A stretch of 64,000 nucleotides of DNA, taken from Fluviicola sp. XM-24bin1. Its GTDB lineage: Bacteria; Bacteroidota; Bacteroidia; Flavobacteriales_D; Crocinitomicaceae. The stretch is from contig QCWI01000010.1 of NCBI GenBank assembly GCA_003149635.1, positions 62,001 to 126,000 on the forward strand. The letters run 5' to 3'. Every line of letters begins with the position of its first letter. The first letter of the stretch is position 1. A program made the position numbers and the translations under genes. The notes beneath the pieces were generated by a model. It was not told where the DNA came from, made no database searches, and saw only the letters and a program-made list of their open reading frames with translations. This document shows, one piece after another, positions 36,026-46,250 of this stretch.

Positions 36026-37453
36026 TTACTTCAGCGTTCCGTTTTCTTTTCCTCCAAGATAGCCAGGCCAGGAAAGCTGCTGAAAAGTACTTTCCAAATC
36101 AATGCGTTCGATCGTTGTTTTTCCCATCCCTAATCCGGAAGTTGCTACCACCAGTTCGTACCGACCGTCTCCATCCAGATCAACAATCGCGGGAGAAGAA
36201 GCCATAGACATCCCTGTTCTTTTTTCCCCGACAAACGATGATTTCTTATTCTGAATATCGTAGATGCGTACTTGATTGCCAATGCTCAATTGCTGATCTT
36301 CACCGAAGTTCATTACATTCTCCACGAACACAATTTCGTCTATTCCGTCGCCGTTAAAGTCTACCGCAACACATGGAGAAAACTGATTCGTCCCTACTTC
36401 CTCCTGAAGCAGTATATCACCGCTGGCTCCATCGATTACAATCAATTCAAATTTCGAATACTGCGGGAAGGTTCCGTAGGCAATAATTGTGAAAAAATCA
36501 GGAACATCATCTTTGTTAAAATAGCCAAGGGACGGTGTAACATAACATTCTGCTCCTTCAAATTGATGTTTCCAAATCGTTTTCTTGTTTTTACCGTTAA
36601 CCGCGACCAATTTCCCATCCATTTGAGCATTCATCAAGTCGAGATGCCCATCTCCGGTAATATCTGCCAAAACGGAGTTCAAGATGAACCCTTTCACGCT
36701 ATCTTGAGCAACTACTTTAGCTCCTTTCGTCGAGTTTTTCAACAACCTTTTATACGACAATTGCCATAACTTACCGTCCACCGTTTCTCCACCGGTTCCA
36801 AAGACCACGAATTCCTTGTTCTTGTATTTGTAGATGTGAGGCGCATAGTACGATTCGCGCTGCTCTGGCATGTAAACCTGGTTGATCACCTCTCCCGTGG
36901 CACCACTTAAAATCATCAATTGAGCCGTTGGACGTTGTTCATCAGAAGGTGCTTTTAGATAATCACCGCCATTTGTAACAAGCAAATCTTTGTAACCATC
37001 GCCGTCTACATCCTCTACCAACTGAGTTCCGAAAAAATTCAGATATCCCTTCCTCCTGGACTCGTTGGCGGAGCCTTCAAAAAATTGCCAGATGATCTCT
37101 CCCGTTGCTCCGTTGAGAGCATAATAGGAAGCTGCTCGTCCGCCAATAAAAACGTCGTCAATTCCATCACCCGAAATGTCTTGAAACAACGCGCTGGTGT
37201 ATATTTGCGTTGAAGTAGGTACTTTCCATAACAACGCACCACTTTCTCCATTTATGGCAAAAACACCGTGAGTAATGGCTACATCTTCCACTCCTCCTCC
37301 CAAAACGACATCTTTGACACCGTCTTCATTTAAATCTGTAAACCGTGGAGACGAAAAGATATTTGCCGAATCTGCAAAATATTGCCATTTCATGCCTTGC
37401 GCTATGCTGCCACCAGAAACGAAAAAGAGAAGAAATAAGAGACCGAAACGCAT
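36026..37453 (-). CDS. Secreted FG-GAP/VCBS-repeat beta-propeller protein
   Basis: A signal peptide (MRFGLLFLLFFVSGGSIAQ) begins at the ATG at 37453; an upstream in-frame extension is rejected. The mature 455 residues contain FG-GAP repeats with calcium-type loops DLNEDGVKDVVLGG, DISGDGIDDVFIGG, DVDGDGYKDLLVTNGG, DFNGDGIDEIVFV and DLDGDGRYELVVATSG, mixed with PQQ-like segments (GESGALLWKV, GATGEIIWQF). It is a cell-surface or periplasmic propeller with no catalytic motif. Divergent from the haloperoxidase gene with only 23 bases between starts. The mnmD gene follows it closely. Confidence 0.87.
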   Translation of the reverse strand: MRFGLLFLLFFVSGGSIAQGMKWQYFADSANIFSSPRFTDLNEDGVKDVVLGGGVEDVAITHGVFAINGESGALLWKVPTSTQIYTSALFQDISGDGIDDVFIGGRAASYYALNGATGEIIWQFFEGSANESRRKGYLNFFGTQLVEDVDGDGYKDLLVTNGGDYLKAPSDEQRPTAQLMILSGATGEVINQVYMPEQRESYYAPHIYKYKNKEFVVFGTGGETVDGKLWQLSYKRLLKNSTKGAKVVAQDSVKGFILNSVLADITGDGHLDLMNAQMDGKLVAVNGKNKKTIWKHQFEGAECYVTPSLGYFNKDDVPDFFTIIAYGTFPQYSKFELIVIDGASGDILLQEEVGTNQFSPCVAVDFNGDGIDEIVFVENVMNFGEDQQLSIGNQVRIYDIQNKKSSFVGEKRTGMSMASSPAIVDLDGDGRYELVVATSGLGMGKTTIERIDLESTFQQLSWPGYLGGKENGTLK

Positions 37454-37458
37454 ACTAT

Positions 37459-37476
37459 TAGTTTCGTGCAAAAGTA
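37459..37476. promoter_or_regulatory. Overlapping divergent promoter boxes
   Basis: Minus strand: TACTTTTG at 37476-37469, an exact TAnnTTTG, gives a short leader for the FG-GAP gene. Plus strand: TAGTTTCG at 37459-37466, one base off consensus, lies 10 bases before the ATG at 37477. The whole divergent space is 23 bases, so the two transcription starts must interfere or be coordinated. Confidence 0.55.
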
Positions 37477-38826
37477 ATGAGGATTCCAGATATACTATTA
37501 ATTTTGGTTTTAATTATGTTACGTACTGCGCTCCTACTTTTTATTTTTCCTAGCTCAATTTTCTACACGAACGCGCAATCAGAGACACACGACAACTGTC
37601 TAAATATTCACAATACTTATTTAAGCACTGCATTCGACCTGACTAAAAATTGCGTAGGATTCTCAGCTCCGGTAAGCGGACGAGCGTACGGATACATTTC
37701 CGTTGGAATGTACGAGGCTACTGTTGATTTCCTTCCCACTAAAATATCGCTACAAAAACAACTCAACGGATACACGAGAAATGTGGAGGTACCGGAAAAG
37801 GTAAATTGGGCTTTGGCAGTCAATGCCGCCGACTATCAACTGCTTTCGTATTTCTACCGAAATATGCCACCCACTCAAAAAGAGCGTCTCGATTCACTCT
37901 ATACTTATCAGAAAAAGGAATACGCAAGTAAAGTACGTAAGAAAACCGTCAAAGCTTCTGAATTATACGGTCAGGAAATCGCCAACGGTATTATTGAATG
38001 GTCCAAAACGGATGGAGCAGAAAACGGACATTTGAACAATTTTCCTGAAGATTTTGAAATCGTGAAATGTGAGTCGTGTTGGGAACGCACTTTCCCAGGA
38101 TATTTACCTGCGCTTACACCGCATTGGGGAAATAACCGTCCGATGTTAAAACAGTCTCCTGACGTTTATAAGAACATGGAAATCTTCGATTTCGATACAG
38201 ACTCTGCTTCAGTCATGTATAAGGAGGCGGCCGCGGTGTATCAAAATGCCATGAATGAAAATCCAGAGTACGAAATTATTGCCGAATATTGGGACGACGC
38301 AGCAGGATACTCCGGAACGCCATCAGGTCACTTTTTCACCATTGCCAGCAGCGTTGTAGCTTCCAGCGAATTAGAACTGGAACAAGCCGTTCAGTTGTAC
38401 GCTACCCTAGGAGTCGCCATTAATGACGCATTCATTGGCTCTTTTTATTTGAAGTACAAGTTCAATTTCATTCGCCCGATCACTTATATCCATCGCTACA
38501 TCGAACCACAGTTCAATTCCCGTTTGGCTTCTCCTCCGTTTCCTGAATACCCTTCGGGGCACTCTTTTCAGTCAGGTGCAGCAACTGAGGTAATGAAAAG
38601 CATCTTTGGAGACACGACAATCATTGTGGACGAAACAAACAAGAATCGGAACGATATCGATGGAAGTCCGAGAACCTATCAGTCGTTTACCGAGATGTCA
38701 GAAGAAATCTCAATTTCCAGATTTTACGGCGGCATTCATTTTCTGAAAACGCTGAATAACAGTCTGGACTACGGCCGACGCATTGGACAATATGTCGTAG
38801 CTACCCTAAAATTTAGCAATGAGTAG
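37477..38826 (+). CDS. Vanadium-dependent haloperoxidase-like (PAP2 superfamily) secreted protein
   Basis: A hydrophobic leader (residues about 4-27) indicates export. The three conserved blocks of the vanadium haloperoxidase/PAP2 fold are visible in the C-terminal half: KFNFIRPITYIHRY, PPFPEYPSGHSFQSGA and EISISRFYGGIHF. They correspond to the phosphate/vanadate-binding Lys/Arg, Ser-Gly-His and Arg-His sites. True haloperoxidase activity versus phosphatase cannot be decided from sequence. The end overlaps the ATG of the CRTAC1 gene by 8 bases. First of a three-gene overlapping operon. Confidence 0.9.
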   Translation: MRIPDILLILVLIMLRTALLLFIFPSSIFYTNAQSETHDNCLNIHNTYLSTAFDLTKNCVGFSAPVSGRAYGYISVGMYEATVDFLPTKISLQKQLNGYTRNVEVPEKVNWALAVNAADYQLLSYFYRNMPPTQKERLDSLYTYQKKEYASKVRKKTVKASELYGQEIANGIIEWSKTDGAENGHLNNFPEDFEIVKCESCWERTFPGYLPALTPHWGNNRPMLKQSPDVYKNMEIFDFDTDSASVMYKEAAAVYQNAMNENPEYEIIAEYWDDAAGYSGTPSGHFFTIASSVVASSELELEQAVQLYATLGVAINDAFIGSFYLKYKFNFIRPITYIHRYIEPQFNSRLASPPFPEYPSGHSFQSGAATEVMKSIFGDTTIIVDETNKNRNDIDGSPRTYQSFTEMSEEISISRFYGGIHFLKTLNNSLDYGRRIGQYVVATLKFSNE

Positions 38827-40435
38827 ACTCACATTATTCATTTTGTTTTTTTGGTTCTGTCCAGTACACAGTCAAACACTCTTTACAGAAGTGAGTGACG
38901 AAATTGGGGTCGACTACGTATACCCTGGAGTAGATTTCCAAATGGCCGGCGGTGGTGTGATGGTCATTGACGTAAACAACGATGGCTGGGAGGATTTTTA
39001 CCAATCTGGCGGTGTGTTTGATTCCAAACTATGGGTCAATCATCAAGGAACTTTCAAAGACGAAACGAAGCGCTACGGACTCAATATTTTGTCCGGGTAC
39101 TTTATTCAGGGGGCATTTGCAGCTGATTTCAATAATGACGGATTTGAAGACTTCTTCATCGCGAATTTTGGTCTCGGAATGGGTATGGGCGACAAACACG
39201 CTCCACTTCTGCTCGTAAACGATAACGGCAACGGGTTCAAACCCCATTACCTCGATTCCTTGCTGCAGCCTGAGGACTACACTTCGGCAACCTGGGGGGA
39301 TTTTAACAAAGATGGATATTCCGACTTATACATTACCAACTACGTCGCGACCATGGGAGAACTCATGGACTCCTCAAAAAATGTCATCGGTTATGACCCA
39401 ATTTGTTCCGAAAACAAATTATTACTCAACGTAAATGGCACGGGATTTCGCGAAGTCTCAGATCTTTATGGATTGAACAATTCAGGCTGCGGTTTGGCCG
39501 CACGGTTTACGGATTTTGATAAAGATGGAGATTTGGACCTTTTGCTCTTGAATGACTTTGGCGAATGGACCGACGAAGGCAATAAATGTTATCGAAATGA
39601 ATTTCCGGAAGCCGCTTTCACAGATATCTCCGACGCAATTGGATTCAATCACAGAATGTATGGAATGGGCATTGGTCCGGGAGATTTCGATCATGACAAC
39701 GATTTGGACTACTTCGTAACGAATGTCGGCCCAAATTATTTGTTTCAAAACGAAGGTGACACCCTCAGCAACGTAGCAATTCAGATGCAACTAGACGATC
39801 CTTACGCCTACAACACCACGTTTGGAACCAGCTGGAGCGGCTTTTTCTTCGATTACGAATTTGATGGAGATCTCGACCTGTATGTATCCAAAGGAAATGT
39901 AGCCATATTGGTTCCCCCCACGTCAGTTTCGGACCCAAACAGAATCTATATCAACGACAATGGAGCCTATGTTGATTCCTCTTCGGGATCTGGAGTCAAT
40001 GACATTCTTTCCCATCGTGGCGCAGTAATTTTAGACTACGATCATGATGGAGATTTGGACATCATTTCTTCCATTGTTAAACTGCCGTGGGGTAAATTTT
40101 CAGGACTTGAACAGAAATTGAAAATCTATAGAAACGAAGCAAATGCAGGAAACTGGATCGGTATCAAACTCAAAGGAACGGATGGACTCGCTTTTGATTG
40201 CTTCGGCTGTGCCCTTGTATTCGAACAGAACGGCCGGGAGACGCGCATGGAAGTTGATGGAGGAAGCGGGCAGGCATCGCAGTCGACCCGAATCAATTAT
40301 TACGGATTGGGCAAAGCCAAACGATTGGAAAAATTGCGCATTGAGTGGTTGAATGGCGAGGTACTTGAGCTCAATAAGTTGAAAGCAAATAAAATGTACG
40401 AAATTACGCTCGACGGAATTCAAGTAGTACGATGA
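38819..40435 (+). CDS. CRTAC1/ASPIC-UnbV FG-GAP-repeat secreted protein
   Basis: A leader of about 20 residues ends near VHSQ. Repeated calcium loops follow: DVNNDGWEDFY, DFNNDGFEDFFIANFG, DFNKDGYSDLYITNY, DFDKDGDLDLLLLND, DFDHDNDLDYFVTN and DYDHDGDLDIISS, forming an integrin-like propeller. The C-terminal 110 residues (NWIGIKLKG ... GGSGQASQSTRINYYGLG) are an ASPIC/UnbV domain. This is the CRTAC1 architecture. It overlaps both neighbours (8 and 4 bases), implying coupled translation with the haloperoxidase and the barrel. Likely surface-exposed. Confidence 0.92.
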   Translation: MSRLTLFILFFWFCPVHSQTLFTEVSDEIGVDYVYPGVDFQMAGGGVMVIDVNNDGWEDFYQSGGVFDSKLWVNHQGTFKDETKRYGLNILSGYFIQGAFAADFNNDGFEDFFIANFGLGMGMGDKHAPLLLVNDNGNGFKPHYLDSLLQPEDYTSATWGDFNKDGYSDLYITNYVATMGELMDSSKNVIGYDPICSENKLLLNVNGTGFREVSDLYGLNNSGCGLAARFTDFDKDGDLDLLLLNDFGEWTDEGNKCYRNEFPEAAFTDISDAIGFNHRMYGMGIGPGDFDHDNDLDYFVTNVGPNYLFQNEGDTLSNVAIQMQLDDPYAYNTTFGTSWSGFFFDYEFDGDLDLYVSKGNVAILVPPTSVSDPNRIYINDNGAYVDSSSGSGVNDILSHRGAVILDYDHDGDLDIISSIVKLPWGKFSGLEQKLKIYRNEANAGNWIGIKLKGTDGLAFDCFGCALVFEQNGRETRMEVDGGSGQASQSTRINYYGLGKAKRLEKLRIEWLNGEVLELNKLKANKMYEITLDGIQVVR

Positions 40436-41484
40436 AAACAATTCTACTATTAGCCACTCTGTTCATCGGTAAGATTGCCTTCGTTCAGGACACTTTGCAA
40501 ACAAGAAAATTTAAGGTGCTTCCCGTACCAGCCTTTGGCTTTTCTCCTGAAACCAGCTATTACATTGGGGCTGTAAGCCTTTTCACCTACGATAGAAACG
40601 ATCAAAAAACCAGAGCTTCGAATGCCAAAGTAGAATTCAATTACACCTGGAATCGACAAATCATTCTAGAAAGTCAAATCAATCATTTTTTCAAAGAGGA
40701 AAAATGGTTTCTTAGCAACGAAGTTCACTACTCGAAGTACCCGGATAGATACTACGGAATTGGAGCGGCAACAGCAGATTCAAACGAAGTTCTATTTCAA
40801 AGCAATCGGTTCAAATTCGACGTTGAACTCAGTCGCAAAATCAAACCACAAATGTTCATCGGCGGTGGATTTCGATATTTCAATTACAACAACATCGGAA
40901 TTCTTTCAGGGCCTTCAAACCTATATGACGAGCTAACCAACCGACAAAACATAGAACTGAAAGTTGACTTTTTCAAAGACTCGCGAAACCGATTGCTAAC
41001 TCCAACAGAAGGGGAATACTACAAAGTGACCATTGGCTACAGCTATACCGATGGATCCTACATACACATGCTTTTTGATGCACGCAAATACTATTCACTC
41101 GGTAAGAAAAAGAATCATGTGGTTGCGGCAAGAATTCTCCAGACTTCTGTTCTTGGTAATGCTCCCTTCTACGATCTTGCCATACTCGGTGGCGACTTTA
41201 TATCAAGAGGCTATTTTTACGGACGCTTTCGAGACAAACACTTAAGCACCCTCCAGCTGGAATACCGAACACCGTATTTGTGGCGTCTGGGACTTTCGCT
41301 TTTCGGAGGAAATTCCCTTGTCTATGGCTCAAGTGCATGGTCTCAACAAGCGATAAAACCGAACGCTGGAATCGGACTTCGCTTCCTTGTCGATAAAAAA
41401 GACCGAACGAACTTGCGCTTTGATTATGCAATCGGAAGAGACGGACAGTCAGGATTCTACGTGAGCTTTGGAGAATCGTTTTGA
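40432..41484 (+). CDS. BamA/TamA-type outer-membrane beta-barrel without POTRA domains
   Basis: After a signal peptide, the protein is almost entirely beta-strand: short alternating stretches with aromatic girdles and a C-terminal Phe (YVSFGESF), as in outer-membrane barrels. Only about 330 residues remain after the signal, with no POTRA repeats, matching the bacterial surface antigen (Omp85) domain alone: GIGAATADSNEV, GGGFRYFNYNNIG and GGDFISRGYFYGRFRD resemble that domain. Start ATGA overlaps the CRTAC1 stop. It may export or display the upstream proteins, but that is inference. Confidence 0.83.
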   Translation: MKTILLLATLFIGKIAFVQDTLQTRKFKVLPVPAFGFSPETSYYIGAVSLFTYDRNDQKTRASNAKVEFNYTWNRQIILESQINHFFKEEKWFLSNEVHYSKYPDRYYGIGAATADSNEVLFQSNRFKFDVELSRKIKPQMFIGGGFRYFNYNNIGILSGPSNLYDELTNRQNIELKVDFFKDSRNRLLTPTEGEYYKVTIGYSYTDGSYIHMLFDARKYYSLGKKKNHVVAARILQTSVLGNAPFYDLAILGGDFISRGYFYGRFRDKHLSTLQLEYRTPYLWRLGLSLFGGNSLVYGSSAWSQQAIKPNAGIGLRFLVDKKDRTNLRFDYAIGRDGQSGFYVSFGESF

Positions 41485-41496
41485 AAATCAACGACT

Positions 41497-43226
41497 TCAA
41501 TATGTTTCAACCACCGGAAGAACCAGGAACGAATTATAGGTTTGAGAACCGTGAATTGTCATTGTCGGCTTCCCTCGTTTCGGACACTTGTTAAAAATCG
41601 CCTTATCGGCGCCAGCAATTGCGATTCGGATAGAATGTCCTGCTTTAATCTTGACGGAAGTGGGCAATAAACGCAACGTTATTTCTTCGATTTGATCTGG
41701 AACCATATGAAGTGCATCCTCTCTTTTAAATGTATGCAGGTTGAATCGGCAATTTTCCTATGGATCAATCGCAATCCACCTTCTGTGATATATGTACTCT
41801 TTCCGTTTTCATCTGCATCTTCCAGATACATCAGCACTACTCCATCTTCATGGGTCGATGACAACCACAGCGTGACTTCAGGTGTTCCCGTAATTTGAAC
41901 ATCTTCGAGAACCGGTTCCGAAGTGTATACCAGCATCCTTTCGTCCATCTCATTGCGATCGTTCAACTCAGTAACTGGGCCTTCCATTTGAGTGGTCCAA
42001 CGATTGTATTTGCTTGTTTGTACCTTGAAATCAACTTTGTAATCGTCGTGCCAGAGAGTATCCGATCGAGAATCGTTCAGAGAGTTCTCAACACCGAAGT
42101 ACCACTTCTTCTCTATAGTTCCGGGGATCGGCCAATCATTTGATTCTTTGAATGTTGTATCGCCGAGGTTATGGTAACGAATCAATGGCCAGTCATCTAC
42201 ACCATTCTGCTCTCCTTTCAGGTGATAATCGAGAAAGGTAAGCATCATTTGACTTTGCTCTCCATAAAGTGGTTGCGGATAGATGAATGAATCGCTTACA
42301 AAAAATGGATCTGCATTGCACCAACCACCGTGAGCTGTTGCCATCAGCAGTACATTCTGAGGATTACTAAAATGCTCTAATCGTTGAATCGTTCCTTCCG
42401 CTGTTCCCGCATCCATCCAACTCGCTACAACAAACATCGGAACACCAGAAGCTTCAATTTCCTTTTGCCAATGAATTACTGAGCACTCTTCGTAGTCAAA
42501 ACCACTTAACGCGTCATCACTAAAGTCCGAACTCCGCGTGTACTTGTGCACTTTCGGATTGTCCTTGTGCTCTTTCAGTGCAGGCTTCAAGGAATCTTCA
42601 AGTATGGGATTAACGGAACTTCTGATGATCAGCGAACGATTACGATCCAGCAAGTGCACATACAATCCCCAATTGTTGATGAATTTACTCGCTAGCATCC
42701 CGTATGGCCTGGCAGGACTTCGATACAAATCAAAATCGGACCAACCTGGAATTACAGCCTTTAACGCTGGATGTTGCGTCGCACAGAGCAATTCTGCAGT
42801 AGTTCCCGTGTATGACGTTCCATAAGAACCGATATTTCCATCGCACCAAGATTGCAAAACGATCCAATCCAATACCGTTTTTGAATCCATCAATTGGATA
42901 GGCGAATACTCCGATTGCCTCGTCCCGAACGAAGCCCCAGTGCCGCGCGTGTCCACAATCATGATGATGTACCTATGTTCGCTGAAGAATTTATCAAGTC
43001 CTATAATGGTCGAAGTATCTTTATCCTTCTTATCAACGCTCGATCGCCAGAATCGTTCAAATTGCACAAACACTGGCAATTCCTCTCCTGCACAGTTTTC
43101 TGGAAAATAAACGTCCGCAGCCAAATTGACACCATCAGGCATGGTGATAAAATGCGATGTACGCGTTTGTGCAAAAGGAAGGAATTGATTATAGCAGAAA
43201 AATGCGATGAACGCGAGTGGTCTCAT
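41497..43226 (-). pseudogene. CocE/NonD (S15 X-Pro dipeptidyl-peptidase-type) hydrolase with frameshifted C-terminus
   Basis: Secreted alpha/beta hydrolase: ATG at 43226 gives a signal peptide ending at PFAQ. The nucleophile motif is SYGTSYTG (Ser138), with the WMDAGTAEG and TAHGGWC blocks for Asp and His. The reading frame stops early at 41679 with an unnatural tail (IWFQIKSKK). The -1 shifted frame continues from about 41705: MVPDQIEEITLRLLPTSVKIKAGHSIRIAIAG, the expected C-terminal beta-sandwich, ending at 41497. Adding one base near 41705 would restore the gene. A sequencing error or a true mutation are both possible. Confidence 0.78.
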
Positions 43227-43368
43227 AGAAGGTTTGTTTTCGTTATTATCCCAACGACAATATTGGGAATAAATTCTTCGCGACCTGAATAACTTTGTGA
43301 ATTTCGTGTTCATATCACGTTCAAAAATCTTTATGATATTTTAAGTGAACATTCGGCCGCATTTGTTG

Positions 43369-44972: not shown

Positions 44973-46250
44973 ATGATGAAGCAGATTCTAATTGTATTCA
45001 CAGCACTTCTTCTCTCCTTTCAGGGAAATGCCTCTCAATTGCTGATTCCTATGGATGAATCGCAATCGAACCACTTGAAGGCCTACGGAGTTGCTTATTA
45101 TGTATTGGAAAGTGAAGTAGTGATTGATTGGCTCCTTAATTACCGAGGAGGATCATTTATGATGCCGCATTTAACGGCCATTGAAGAAGAATTGGTGCTT
45201 CGCGGCGTGAGTTACGAAATCATTGCGGATGCTCAGGCGGTTGGCATCAAAGAACAAATTGCCAATCCTGAAATAAATATGGAGGTCGTGCAATTGGAGA
45301 AAGCTCCGAAAATTGCCGTGTACACTCCAGGAGGCAAACAACCTTGGGACGATGCAGTAACATTGGTAATGGAATATGCTGAAATTCCGTACGAGAAAAT
45401 TTACGATTCTGCCATTGTGATGGGTGTATTACCTGAATACGACTGGTTGCACCTCCACCACGAGGATTTCACAGGTCAATACGGTAAGTTCTATGCGAGT
45501 TTCCGTTCCTACGCCTGGTACAAACAACAAGTAGCAGATTTGGAAGCTTCTGCAGCGCAATTAGGCTTTGATAAGGTTTCAGAGATGAAATTAGCCGTTG
45601 CTACCAACATTAAAAACTTCGTTATCGGAGGTGGATTCCTGTTTACGATGTGTAGCGGAACCGATAGTTTCGACATCGGACTGGCGGCTCATCAAACGGA
45701 TATTTGTGAAGTAATGTTCGATGGTGACCCAGCAGATCCTAACGCGCAAAGCAAATTGGATTTCAACAACACGCTAGCCTTCGAAAACTTTGAATTGGTG
45801 CGCGATCCATTGACATACGAATATTCCAATATCGATGGGACGGATCTTCGAAACAGACGACTTCCTGAGGCGCAAGCAGCCAAAGGAGATAAGTTTACAT
45901 TGTTCGAATTCTCGGCCAAATGGGATGTCGTTCCAACGATGCTCACACAGTGCCATACAGATGTTGTCAATGGATTCATGGGGCAAACTACCGATTTCAA
46001 GAAGGATTTCATCAAATCTAACGTGCTCATTATGGGTGAATCCAAAGCTTATGGAACAGCCCGATACATTCATGGAGAATTAGGACAGGGAACATGGACC
46101 TTCTACGGAGGTCATGACCCGGAAGATTATCAGCATCGCGTGGGCGATCCTCCTACTGACTTAAACCTTCACCCTAACTCTCCTGGATATCGCTTGATCC
46201 TCAATAATATTCTTTTCCCTGCAGCAAAAAAGAAAAAGCGAAAAACCTAA
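44973..46250 (+). CDS. Conserved secreted Bacteroidota protein, GATase1-like
   Basis: Signal peptide (MMKQILIVFTALLLSFQGNAS) and a mature region beginning LLIPMDESQSNHLKAYGVAYYVLE. This family is often annotated as asparagine synthetase B, but no AsnB glutaminase or synthetase motif is visible. The middle resembles a class I glutamine-amidotransferase-like fold: YTPGGKQPWDDAVTLV, LHLHHEDFTGQYGKF, IGGGFLFTMCSGTD and NFTMGESKAYG-like blocks. Exported and conserved, function unproven. The ATG at 44973 is the second of two possible M; 23 bases after dnaB. Confidence 0.78.
   Translation: MMKQILIVFTALLLSFQGNASQLLIPMDESQSNHLKAYGVAYYVLESEVVIDWLLNYRGGSFMMPHLTAIEEELVLRGVSYEIIADAQAVGIKEQIANPEINMEVVQLEKAPKIAVYTPGGKQPWDDAVTLVMEYAEIPYEKIYDSAIVMGVLPEYDWLHLHHEDFTGQYGKFYASFRSYAWYKQQVADLEASAAQLGFDKVSEMKLAVATNIKNFVIGGGFLFTMCSGTDSFDIGLAAHQTDICEVMFDGDPADPNAQSKLDFNNTLAFENFELVRDPLTYEYSNIDGTDLRNRRLPEAQAAKGDKFTLFEFSAKWDVVPTMLTQCHTDVVNGFMGQTTDFKKDFIKSNVLIMGESKAYGTARYIHGELGQGTWTFYGGHDPEDYQHRVGDPPTDLNLHPNSPGYRLILNNILFPAAKKKKRKT

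Follow-up and report, generated by a model that had tools for sequence, protein, structure and literature searches.

Vanadium haloperoxidase-like and CRTAC1-type genes form a conserved pair in Bacteroidota and Pseudomonadota

We analyzed a 64,000-nucleotide stretch of the genome of Fluviicola sp. XM-24bin1 (Crocinitomicaceae; assembly GCA_003149635.1, contig QCWI01000010.1, positions 62,001–126,000), hereafter the window, in which three overlapping genes lie on the forward strand. Gene 1 encodes a protein resembling vanadium haloperoxidases (VHPO), gene 2 a propeller protein of the CRTAC1 type (CRTAC) and gene 3 an outer-membrane barrel of the Omp85 family that lacks POTRA domains. An earlier note on this DNA had proposed that all three genes act as one functional unit. 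Our results give good support to a smaller conserved unit, the VHPO-CRTAC pair, with the barrel left out. This pair is kept adjacent in Bacteroidota and in Pseudomonadota while its gene order and its neighbours change. On balance, we favour the view that it is an exported module of two parts that oxidises halides and is tied to carbohydrate use.

Results

The VHPO-CRTAC pair within the family

A sample of 100 genomes of the family, the window's own genome included, was searched for the two genes. VHPO is present in 10 of them, and nine carry the type found in the window, with 41–61% identity in the other eight. The CRTAC orthologue occurs in the same nine genomes and in no other of the 100. 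The two genes are adjacent and their open reading frames (ORFs) overlap in all nine; at the junction, the overlap amounts to 4–16 bases in 8/8 close relatives when ORF starts are assigned mechanically. In one of the genomes (G483), the CRTAC frame is truncated close to where the contig ends. In the tenth VHPO-positive genome (G440), the VHPO is less closely related (39%), and the stretch fetched around it holds no CRTAC. Among the matches listed, the closest named relatives are metagenome-assembled genomes (MAGs) of Flavobacteriales and Fluviicola. We also noted three CRTAC paralogues (L252, L253, and L254; 35–37%) with no VHPO beside them, two of which (L253 and L254) share neighbours that by eye resemble aminotransferase and biotin-synthesis genes.

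The pair beyond the family

A search of contigs with a single VHPO sequence returned no relatives, and a profile search with the close alignment of VHPO sequences (A1) was used instead. The named loci discussed below are the best 80 of its 449 matches, with phylum labels assigned by hand from record titles. Among these 80, CRTAC adjoins VHPO on the same strand at 55 of the 56 pseudomonadotan loci and at 8/14 loci of Bacteroidota; it is not beside VHPO at the one Deinococcales locus. In the lone pseudomonadotan exception (L237), 81 bases separate the start from a contig end, and this is the flank that holds CRTAC in its relatives; all 32 pseudomonadotan loci flanked by 6.5 kb or more on each side are paired. 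VHPO comes first in the alphaproteobacterial loci and CRTAC comes first in nine of the ten betaproteobacterial ones, the tenth starting at a contig end. At seven inspected pseudomonadotan loci without xylose-utilization (xyl) genes, the surroundings mostly differ (L213 and L218 are alike) and the pair is intact. Thus, the functional unit proposed in the earlier note is well supported for genes 1 and 2, both in the nine family genomes and at the pseudomonadotan loci, but not for the barrel as a member.

We then turned to 395 genomes of the window's own phylum, 82 of which have a VHPO at E 1e-10. In all, 120 stretches were fetched, 111 from this phylum sample (the better listed matches, several per genome) and nine from the family; 118 could be scored, the VHPO having been displaced by a longer overlapping ORF in L139 and L152. 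At 63 of the 118 loci the neighbouring gene is of the CRTAC family, and at 74 such a gene lies within three genes. Without the nine family loci, eight of which are paired, the corresponding counts are 55/109 and 66/109. A placement control was performed in eight genomes holding 47 UnbV_ASPIC domains, the domain that follows the FG-GAP repeats in CRTAC proteins. Of the 14 listed VHPOs, 10 have such a domain no more than 5 kb away, whereas 20,000 random placements gave 0.15 such cases on average and never more than 3. This control took listed VHPOs only and, among these, no match weaker than E 1e-25 (G118 has one such match listed); one of the 10 close pairs is counted across the presumed circular join of G249.

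In a midpoint-rooted tree of 201 VHPOs, all 70 short-CRTAC contexts fall in one half (support 0.64) and 57 of the 58 contexts with long CRTAC only fall in the other. Across 67 pairs, the distance matrix of VHPO correlates with that of CRTAC (r 0.90; 0/1000 shuffles within each of three groups), but linked inheritance alone would be enough to produce this. VHPO matches on plasmids comprise 10 records, all below 60% identity.

Gene 1 has the predicted fold and the active-site residues of a vanadium haloperoxidase

Gene 1 (37477–38826, 449 aa) has its best sequence match in the Zobellia iodoperoxidase 4cit (2.9e-44, phmmer). According to the reference lists of papers, 4cit and 4usz are the vanadium iodoperoxidase of Zobellia galactanivorans. 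A structure model built with 25 homologues (pLDDT 90.6) superposes on 4cit with a Z score of 49.8 and 2.1 Å over 394 residues, at 29% identity, and the two thus share their fold over almost the entire chain. The vanadate-site residues align in the sequence comparison with 4cit. Further matches of the model are other VHPO-family chains (Z 32 to 17) and acid phosphatases (14.8 at most). The predicted structure has the helical bundle typical of VHPOs. By Pfam, gene 1 matches PAP2 exactly at the cut-off (3.6e-06, 27.2 bits) and VCPO_2nd under it (1.2e-04).

The candidate vanadate-site residues are K326, R333, S360-G361-H362, R415, and H421. All are invariant in the 9/9 sequences of A1 and the 26/26 sequences of a wider alignment (A5), the window included in these counts. 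Gene 1 matches the three patterns Kx6RP, PSGH, and SRx5H, which we take to represent the Lys, Arg, Ser-Gly-His, Arg, and His of VHPOs. Judged by modelled fold and active-site residues, gene 1 is a vanadium haloperoxidase, as the earlier note had supposed in calling it haloperoxidase-like, and is predicted to oxidise halide.

VHPOs also vary in the length of an active-site insertion. An 18-residue insertion was seen in 32 of 201 VHPO sequences; 77 VHPOs have a short loop, of which 67 stand beside a short CRTAC, two beside a long CRTAC, and eight beside none. These counts are partial because the loop pattern failed on 92 of the 201 sequences.

Gene 2 is a CRTAC1-type propeller

Gene 2 (38819–40435, 538 aa) carries FG-GAP repeats (FG-GAP_3, 4.4e-27) followed by an UnbV_ASPIC domain (6e-08). 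Its model, built with 24 homologues (pLDDT 85.0), has the fold of murine CRTAC1 (cartilage acidic protein 1, 9etn; E 1e-28, TMq 0.75), its sequence matches CRTAC1 by phmmer at 8.1e-12, and the assignment to CRTAC1/ASPIC proteins made in the earlier note is thereby confirmed at the level of domains and modelled fold. The resemblance includes both the FG-GAP propeller and UnbV_ASPIC, but gene 2 is bacterial, only 18% identical to 9etn in the structural alignment, and encoded beside a VHPO. The next structural matches are much weaker and include sugar-binding propeller lectins (TMq about 0.4); sugar-binding lectins are also described among VCBS-type propellers (PMC8023676). A CRTAC1-family gene likewise sits among hydrazine-synthase-like genes (PMC12758564). 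It is kept there beside genes related to a diheme-peroxidase-like enzyme, of a family unrelated to VHPO.

Carbohydrate genes recur around the pair in relatives

We counted as xyl genes those matching xylF, G, H, A or B seeds with at least 250 bits within the fetched stretch. Such genes are found at 26 of the 56 pseudomonadotan loci among the best 80, or 18 of the 32 with full flanks, and also at the Deinococcales locus. In five Rhodobacterales loci (L191, L193, L222, L226, and L229), the order xylF-H-G-B-A-VHPO-CRTAC runs on one strand. In NCBIfam, the seeds for xylose isomerase (xylA), xylulokinase (xylB), and the xylose-binding protein (xylF) score above the cut-offs; those for the permease and the ATPase match sugar ABC families below the cut-offs only.

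In the phylum and family set, SusD lies within six genes of VHPO at 26/118 loci. Some Bacteroidota loci read SusC-SusD-long CRTAC-VHPO, and three of these (L059, L065, and L076) also have a short CRTAC after the VHPO. They resemble the window in placing a VHPO beside a CRTAC-family protein but differ from it in that the window has neither a SusC/SusD match nor a long CRTAC. The recurrence of xylose operons and SusC/SusD beside the relatives' pairs suggests that the module serves carbohydrate catabolism, of plant or algal biomass.

The barrel is an occasional companion at most

Gene 3 (40432–41484, 350 aa) matches Omp85 (PF01103, 3.6e-13) over residues 64–350 of 350, and we found no POTRA and no other Pfam domain at E 0.01. 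Together with R259-G260, which is invariant in 9/9 aligned sequences, this agrees with the POTRA-less Omp85 barrel described previously. In domain layout, gene 3 is like the noNterm proteins, a subfamily of Omp85/TpsB proteins without N-terminal extension for which a possible role in membrane-protein biogenesis has been suggested (PMC4104836). The three ORFs and both overlaps lie exactly where the earlier note had placed them: genes 1 and 2 share eight bases (ATGAGTAG, 38819–38826) and genes 2 and 3 share four (ATGA, 40432–40435), the latter overlap not being seen in the relatives examined.

Conservation of the exact trio was looked for in other genomes and failed. Six family relatives have contigs long enough to show what lies downstream of CRTAC (those of L045 and L046 stop short of it), and in none of the six is it a barrel. 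The named relatives L173 and L174 have no barrel there either, and the trio was rejected as a conserved unit. Nor is the barrel consistently encoded with a cargo, as it would be in dedicated Omp85 secretion. No barrel-model match was found in the stretches fetched around pseudomonadotan pairs, and none above 48 bits in the 120 phylum and family stretches. Weak matches (38–48 bits) within three genes of VHPO occur at 4/118 loci, in proteins of 1237–1305 aa. Long proteins of this size with weak barrel matches were noted a few genes from VHPO in L102, L128, L136, L141, and L145, all in genomes of one family; the one tested, from L102, is Metallophos only by Pfam.

A further gene, absent from the earlier note, diverges from gene 1 on the reverse strand (36026–37471, 481 aa). 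By Pfam it encodes an FG-GAP/FAM234-type propeller that appears exported. The mechanical ORF starts of this gene (a TTG) and of gene 1 are 5 bp apart, and an ATG is present at about 37453. Orthologues of this FG-GAP gene were found in 6/10 VHPO-positive against 0/90 VHPO-negative family genomes (Fisher p 1.8e-7), and barrel orthologues, at about 50% identity, in 4/10 against 1/90 (p 2.5e-4); both tests include the window's own genome and are not corrected for relatedness. The FG-GAP gene adjoins the pair in five of its six genomes; that of G483 is instead carried by a contig other than the pair's and overlaps a barrel gene by 4 bases (L082). At four of eight other loci examined (L272, L273, L276, and L278), FG-GAP relatives stand beside CRTAC-model genes.

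The window's barrel is the only barrel match of its genome at E 0.001, and barrel homologues of any kind occur in 38/100 family genomes at E 1e-5. The barrel orthologues of G476, G479, and G405 are located away from both the pair and the FG-GAP gene. In G479, the intact barrel directly follows a gene that by eye resembles fabF, and in the VHPO-negative G444 (L259) a barrel remnant broken by stop codons lies one gene past a fabF-like gene. Seven distant barrels (L085–L091, 25–32% identical) have no VHPO, CRTAC or FG-GAP within about 1.5 kb. A Chitinophaga MAG (L224) carries a row of long CRTAC, FG-GAP, and VHPO genes, followed by a 36%-identical barrel on the opposite strand that faces the VHPO, with the gene ends overlapping by 4 bases; since it was the VHPO that led to this locus, it is not an independent case. 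As the barrel is absent after CRTAC in the six informative relatives but adjoins FG-GAP or VHPO in two other genomes, it is accessory at most.

Other features of the locus

The proteins encoded at the locus are probably exported, a prediction drawn solely from hydrophobic N-termini judged by eye. Each has relatives elsewhere across most of its length, and the reading of the locus is therefore not a product of chance. A promoter and terminator scan of the locus gave results no better than those for shuffled sequences. Downstream, on the reverse strand, lies a CocE/NonD (S15) hydrolase gene (41484–43313) whose ORF ends early: its PepX_C match covers positions 1–143 of 217 only, and the C-terminal part seems to continue in another frame, pointing to a frameshifted gene or a sequence error. 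An ORF on the forward strand (44973–46250) encodes 425 aa; its product has a hydrophobic N-terminus, and neither Pfam nor NCBIfam gives a match at E 0.01.

Discussion

We infer from fold and site residues that gene 1 would bind vanadate and use H2O2 to oxidise halide, most likely iodide or bromide; the resulting hypohalous species would form in the periplasm or on the cell surface. Gene 2 would dock to it as a calcium-stabilised partner, and may tether it, aim it at glycan-bearing material or help to supply oxidant. The module would then serve the catabolism of carbohydrate from plant or algal biomass. The divergent FG-GAP protein and the POTRA-less barrel would be lineage-restricted accessories, the barrel perhaps providing outer-membrane anchoring or passage. 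As a precedent for this chemistry, iodine uptake by Arenibacter C-21 requires glucose, oxygen, and calcium, a glucose oxidase acting with a haloperoxidase has been proposed for it, and five or more homologues of the Zobellia enzyme are encoded in its genome (PMC5064120).

Several observations weigh against a halide-oxidising module linked to carbohydrate use. Only 91 of the 124 VHPO-like sequences of the wider set fit all three strict site patterns, and the window's site is therefore not common to every relative. The active-site insertion of 18 residues in the Zobellia enzyme is reduced to 6 in gene 1, leaving a gap in the alignment with 4cit, and gene 1 thus lacks the long loop of the Zobellia-type iodoperoxidase subgroup. 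The PAP2 fold is common to acid phosphatases, with Z up to 14.8, and we know of no assay of any close relative. As for the pairing, CRTAC homologues without VHPO exist, the VHPO-negative genome G457 having two paralogues at 35–36%; VHPO has no adjacent CRTAC in 54/109 phylum loci, and among the best 80 loci none of the nine from Chloroflexota, some of them on short contigs, has CRTAC beside VHPO. Finally, the window contains no xyl genes and, with models built from the fetched loci, no susC or susD, which means that the link to carbohydrates comes from its relatives.

The same shared fold allows gene 1 to be read as an exported PAP2 phosphatase acting on sugar or lipid phosphate, with CRTAC as its lectin-like partner. 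Such a reading draws on G6PC1 as well as the acid phosphatases, on the sugar-gene neighbourhoods of relatives and on the VHPO-specific VCPO_2nd match falling below its cut-off. We think it unlikely, since the best matches in both sequence and structure are haloperoxidases, with a Z score of 49.8 for 4cit compared with 14.8 for the best phosphatase. Moreover, the PAP2 signature closes with an Asp four residues after the last His (H-x3-D). This position is Thr425 in gene 1, invariant in A1, and Ala in the sequence-aligned 4cit, and gene 1 thus lacks the signature. If gene 1 is instead a haloperoxidase, the pair could be an antimicrobial or H2O2-detoxifying system with no link to carbohydrates. 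Haloperoxidase roles of this kind have been proposed (PMC4926216), the Zobellia vIPO3 is upregulated on a brown alga (PMC9296495), and some loci have no evident sugar genes nearby. The xyl genes at nearly half of the pseudomonadotan loci (26/56) and SusD at 26/118 phylum and family loci speak against this, and we regard it as rather improbable.

For the barrel, the earlier note's model was a functional unit of three parts, in effect a dedicated secretion system, in which the barrel may serve to export the other two proteins or to display them. The 4-base overlap of genes 2 and 3, the barrels beside FG-GAP or VHPO in L082 and L224, and the enrichment of barrel orthologues in VHPO-positive family genomes would fit this model. 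We consider it very unlikely given the 0/6 informative relatives, the orthologues of G476, G479, and G405 located elsewhere, the lack of a barrel match around pseudomonadotan pairs and the opposite strand of the L224 barrel. A stronger contender, with nearly an even chance of being right, makes the barrel a passenger, which would have come to lie behind CRTAC in this lineage without taking any part in the module's work. Of the five near-50% barrels, three are located apart from the pair and FG-GAP, the G479 barrel and the G444 remnant are associated with fabF-like genes, the seven distant barrels stand apart from VHPO, CRTAC, and FG-GAP, and barrel homologues are common in the family (38/100). 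However, the other two near-50% barrels, those of the window and G483, stand next to the pair or FG-GAP; a third such case, though not an independent one, would be L224. Returning to the pair as an exported, carbohydrate-linked oxidising module, we can also draw a bolder picture that we regard as doubtful. The pair might be an undescribed two-protein oxidative machine, spread across phyla and wired into sugar catabolism: sugar-linked H2O2 would drive halide oxidation, and a calcium-dependent CRTAC would hold the VHPO and aim it at lignocellulose or algal glycan, freeing usable sugars. POTRA-less barrels and FG-GAP propellers would have been added in Bacteroidota for outer-membrane placement.

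All parts of the locus belong to known families; the pairing and its neighbourhoods seem to be new. In titles, abstract openings, and passages of the open-access literature no description of the VHPO-CRTAC pair is apparent, and one may exist in a paper elsewhere.

To our knowledge, the cellular role of most bacterial vanadium haloperoxidases is not settled. A partner kept beside VHPO in different phyla leads to the concrete hypothesis that the enzyme works with this partner, and the recurrent place of the pair beside xylose operons and SusC/SusD to that of a carbohydrate-linked role. The function of human CRTAC1, an extracellular protein, is poorly known, and its bacterial relatives gain here a candidate enzyme partner.

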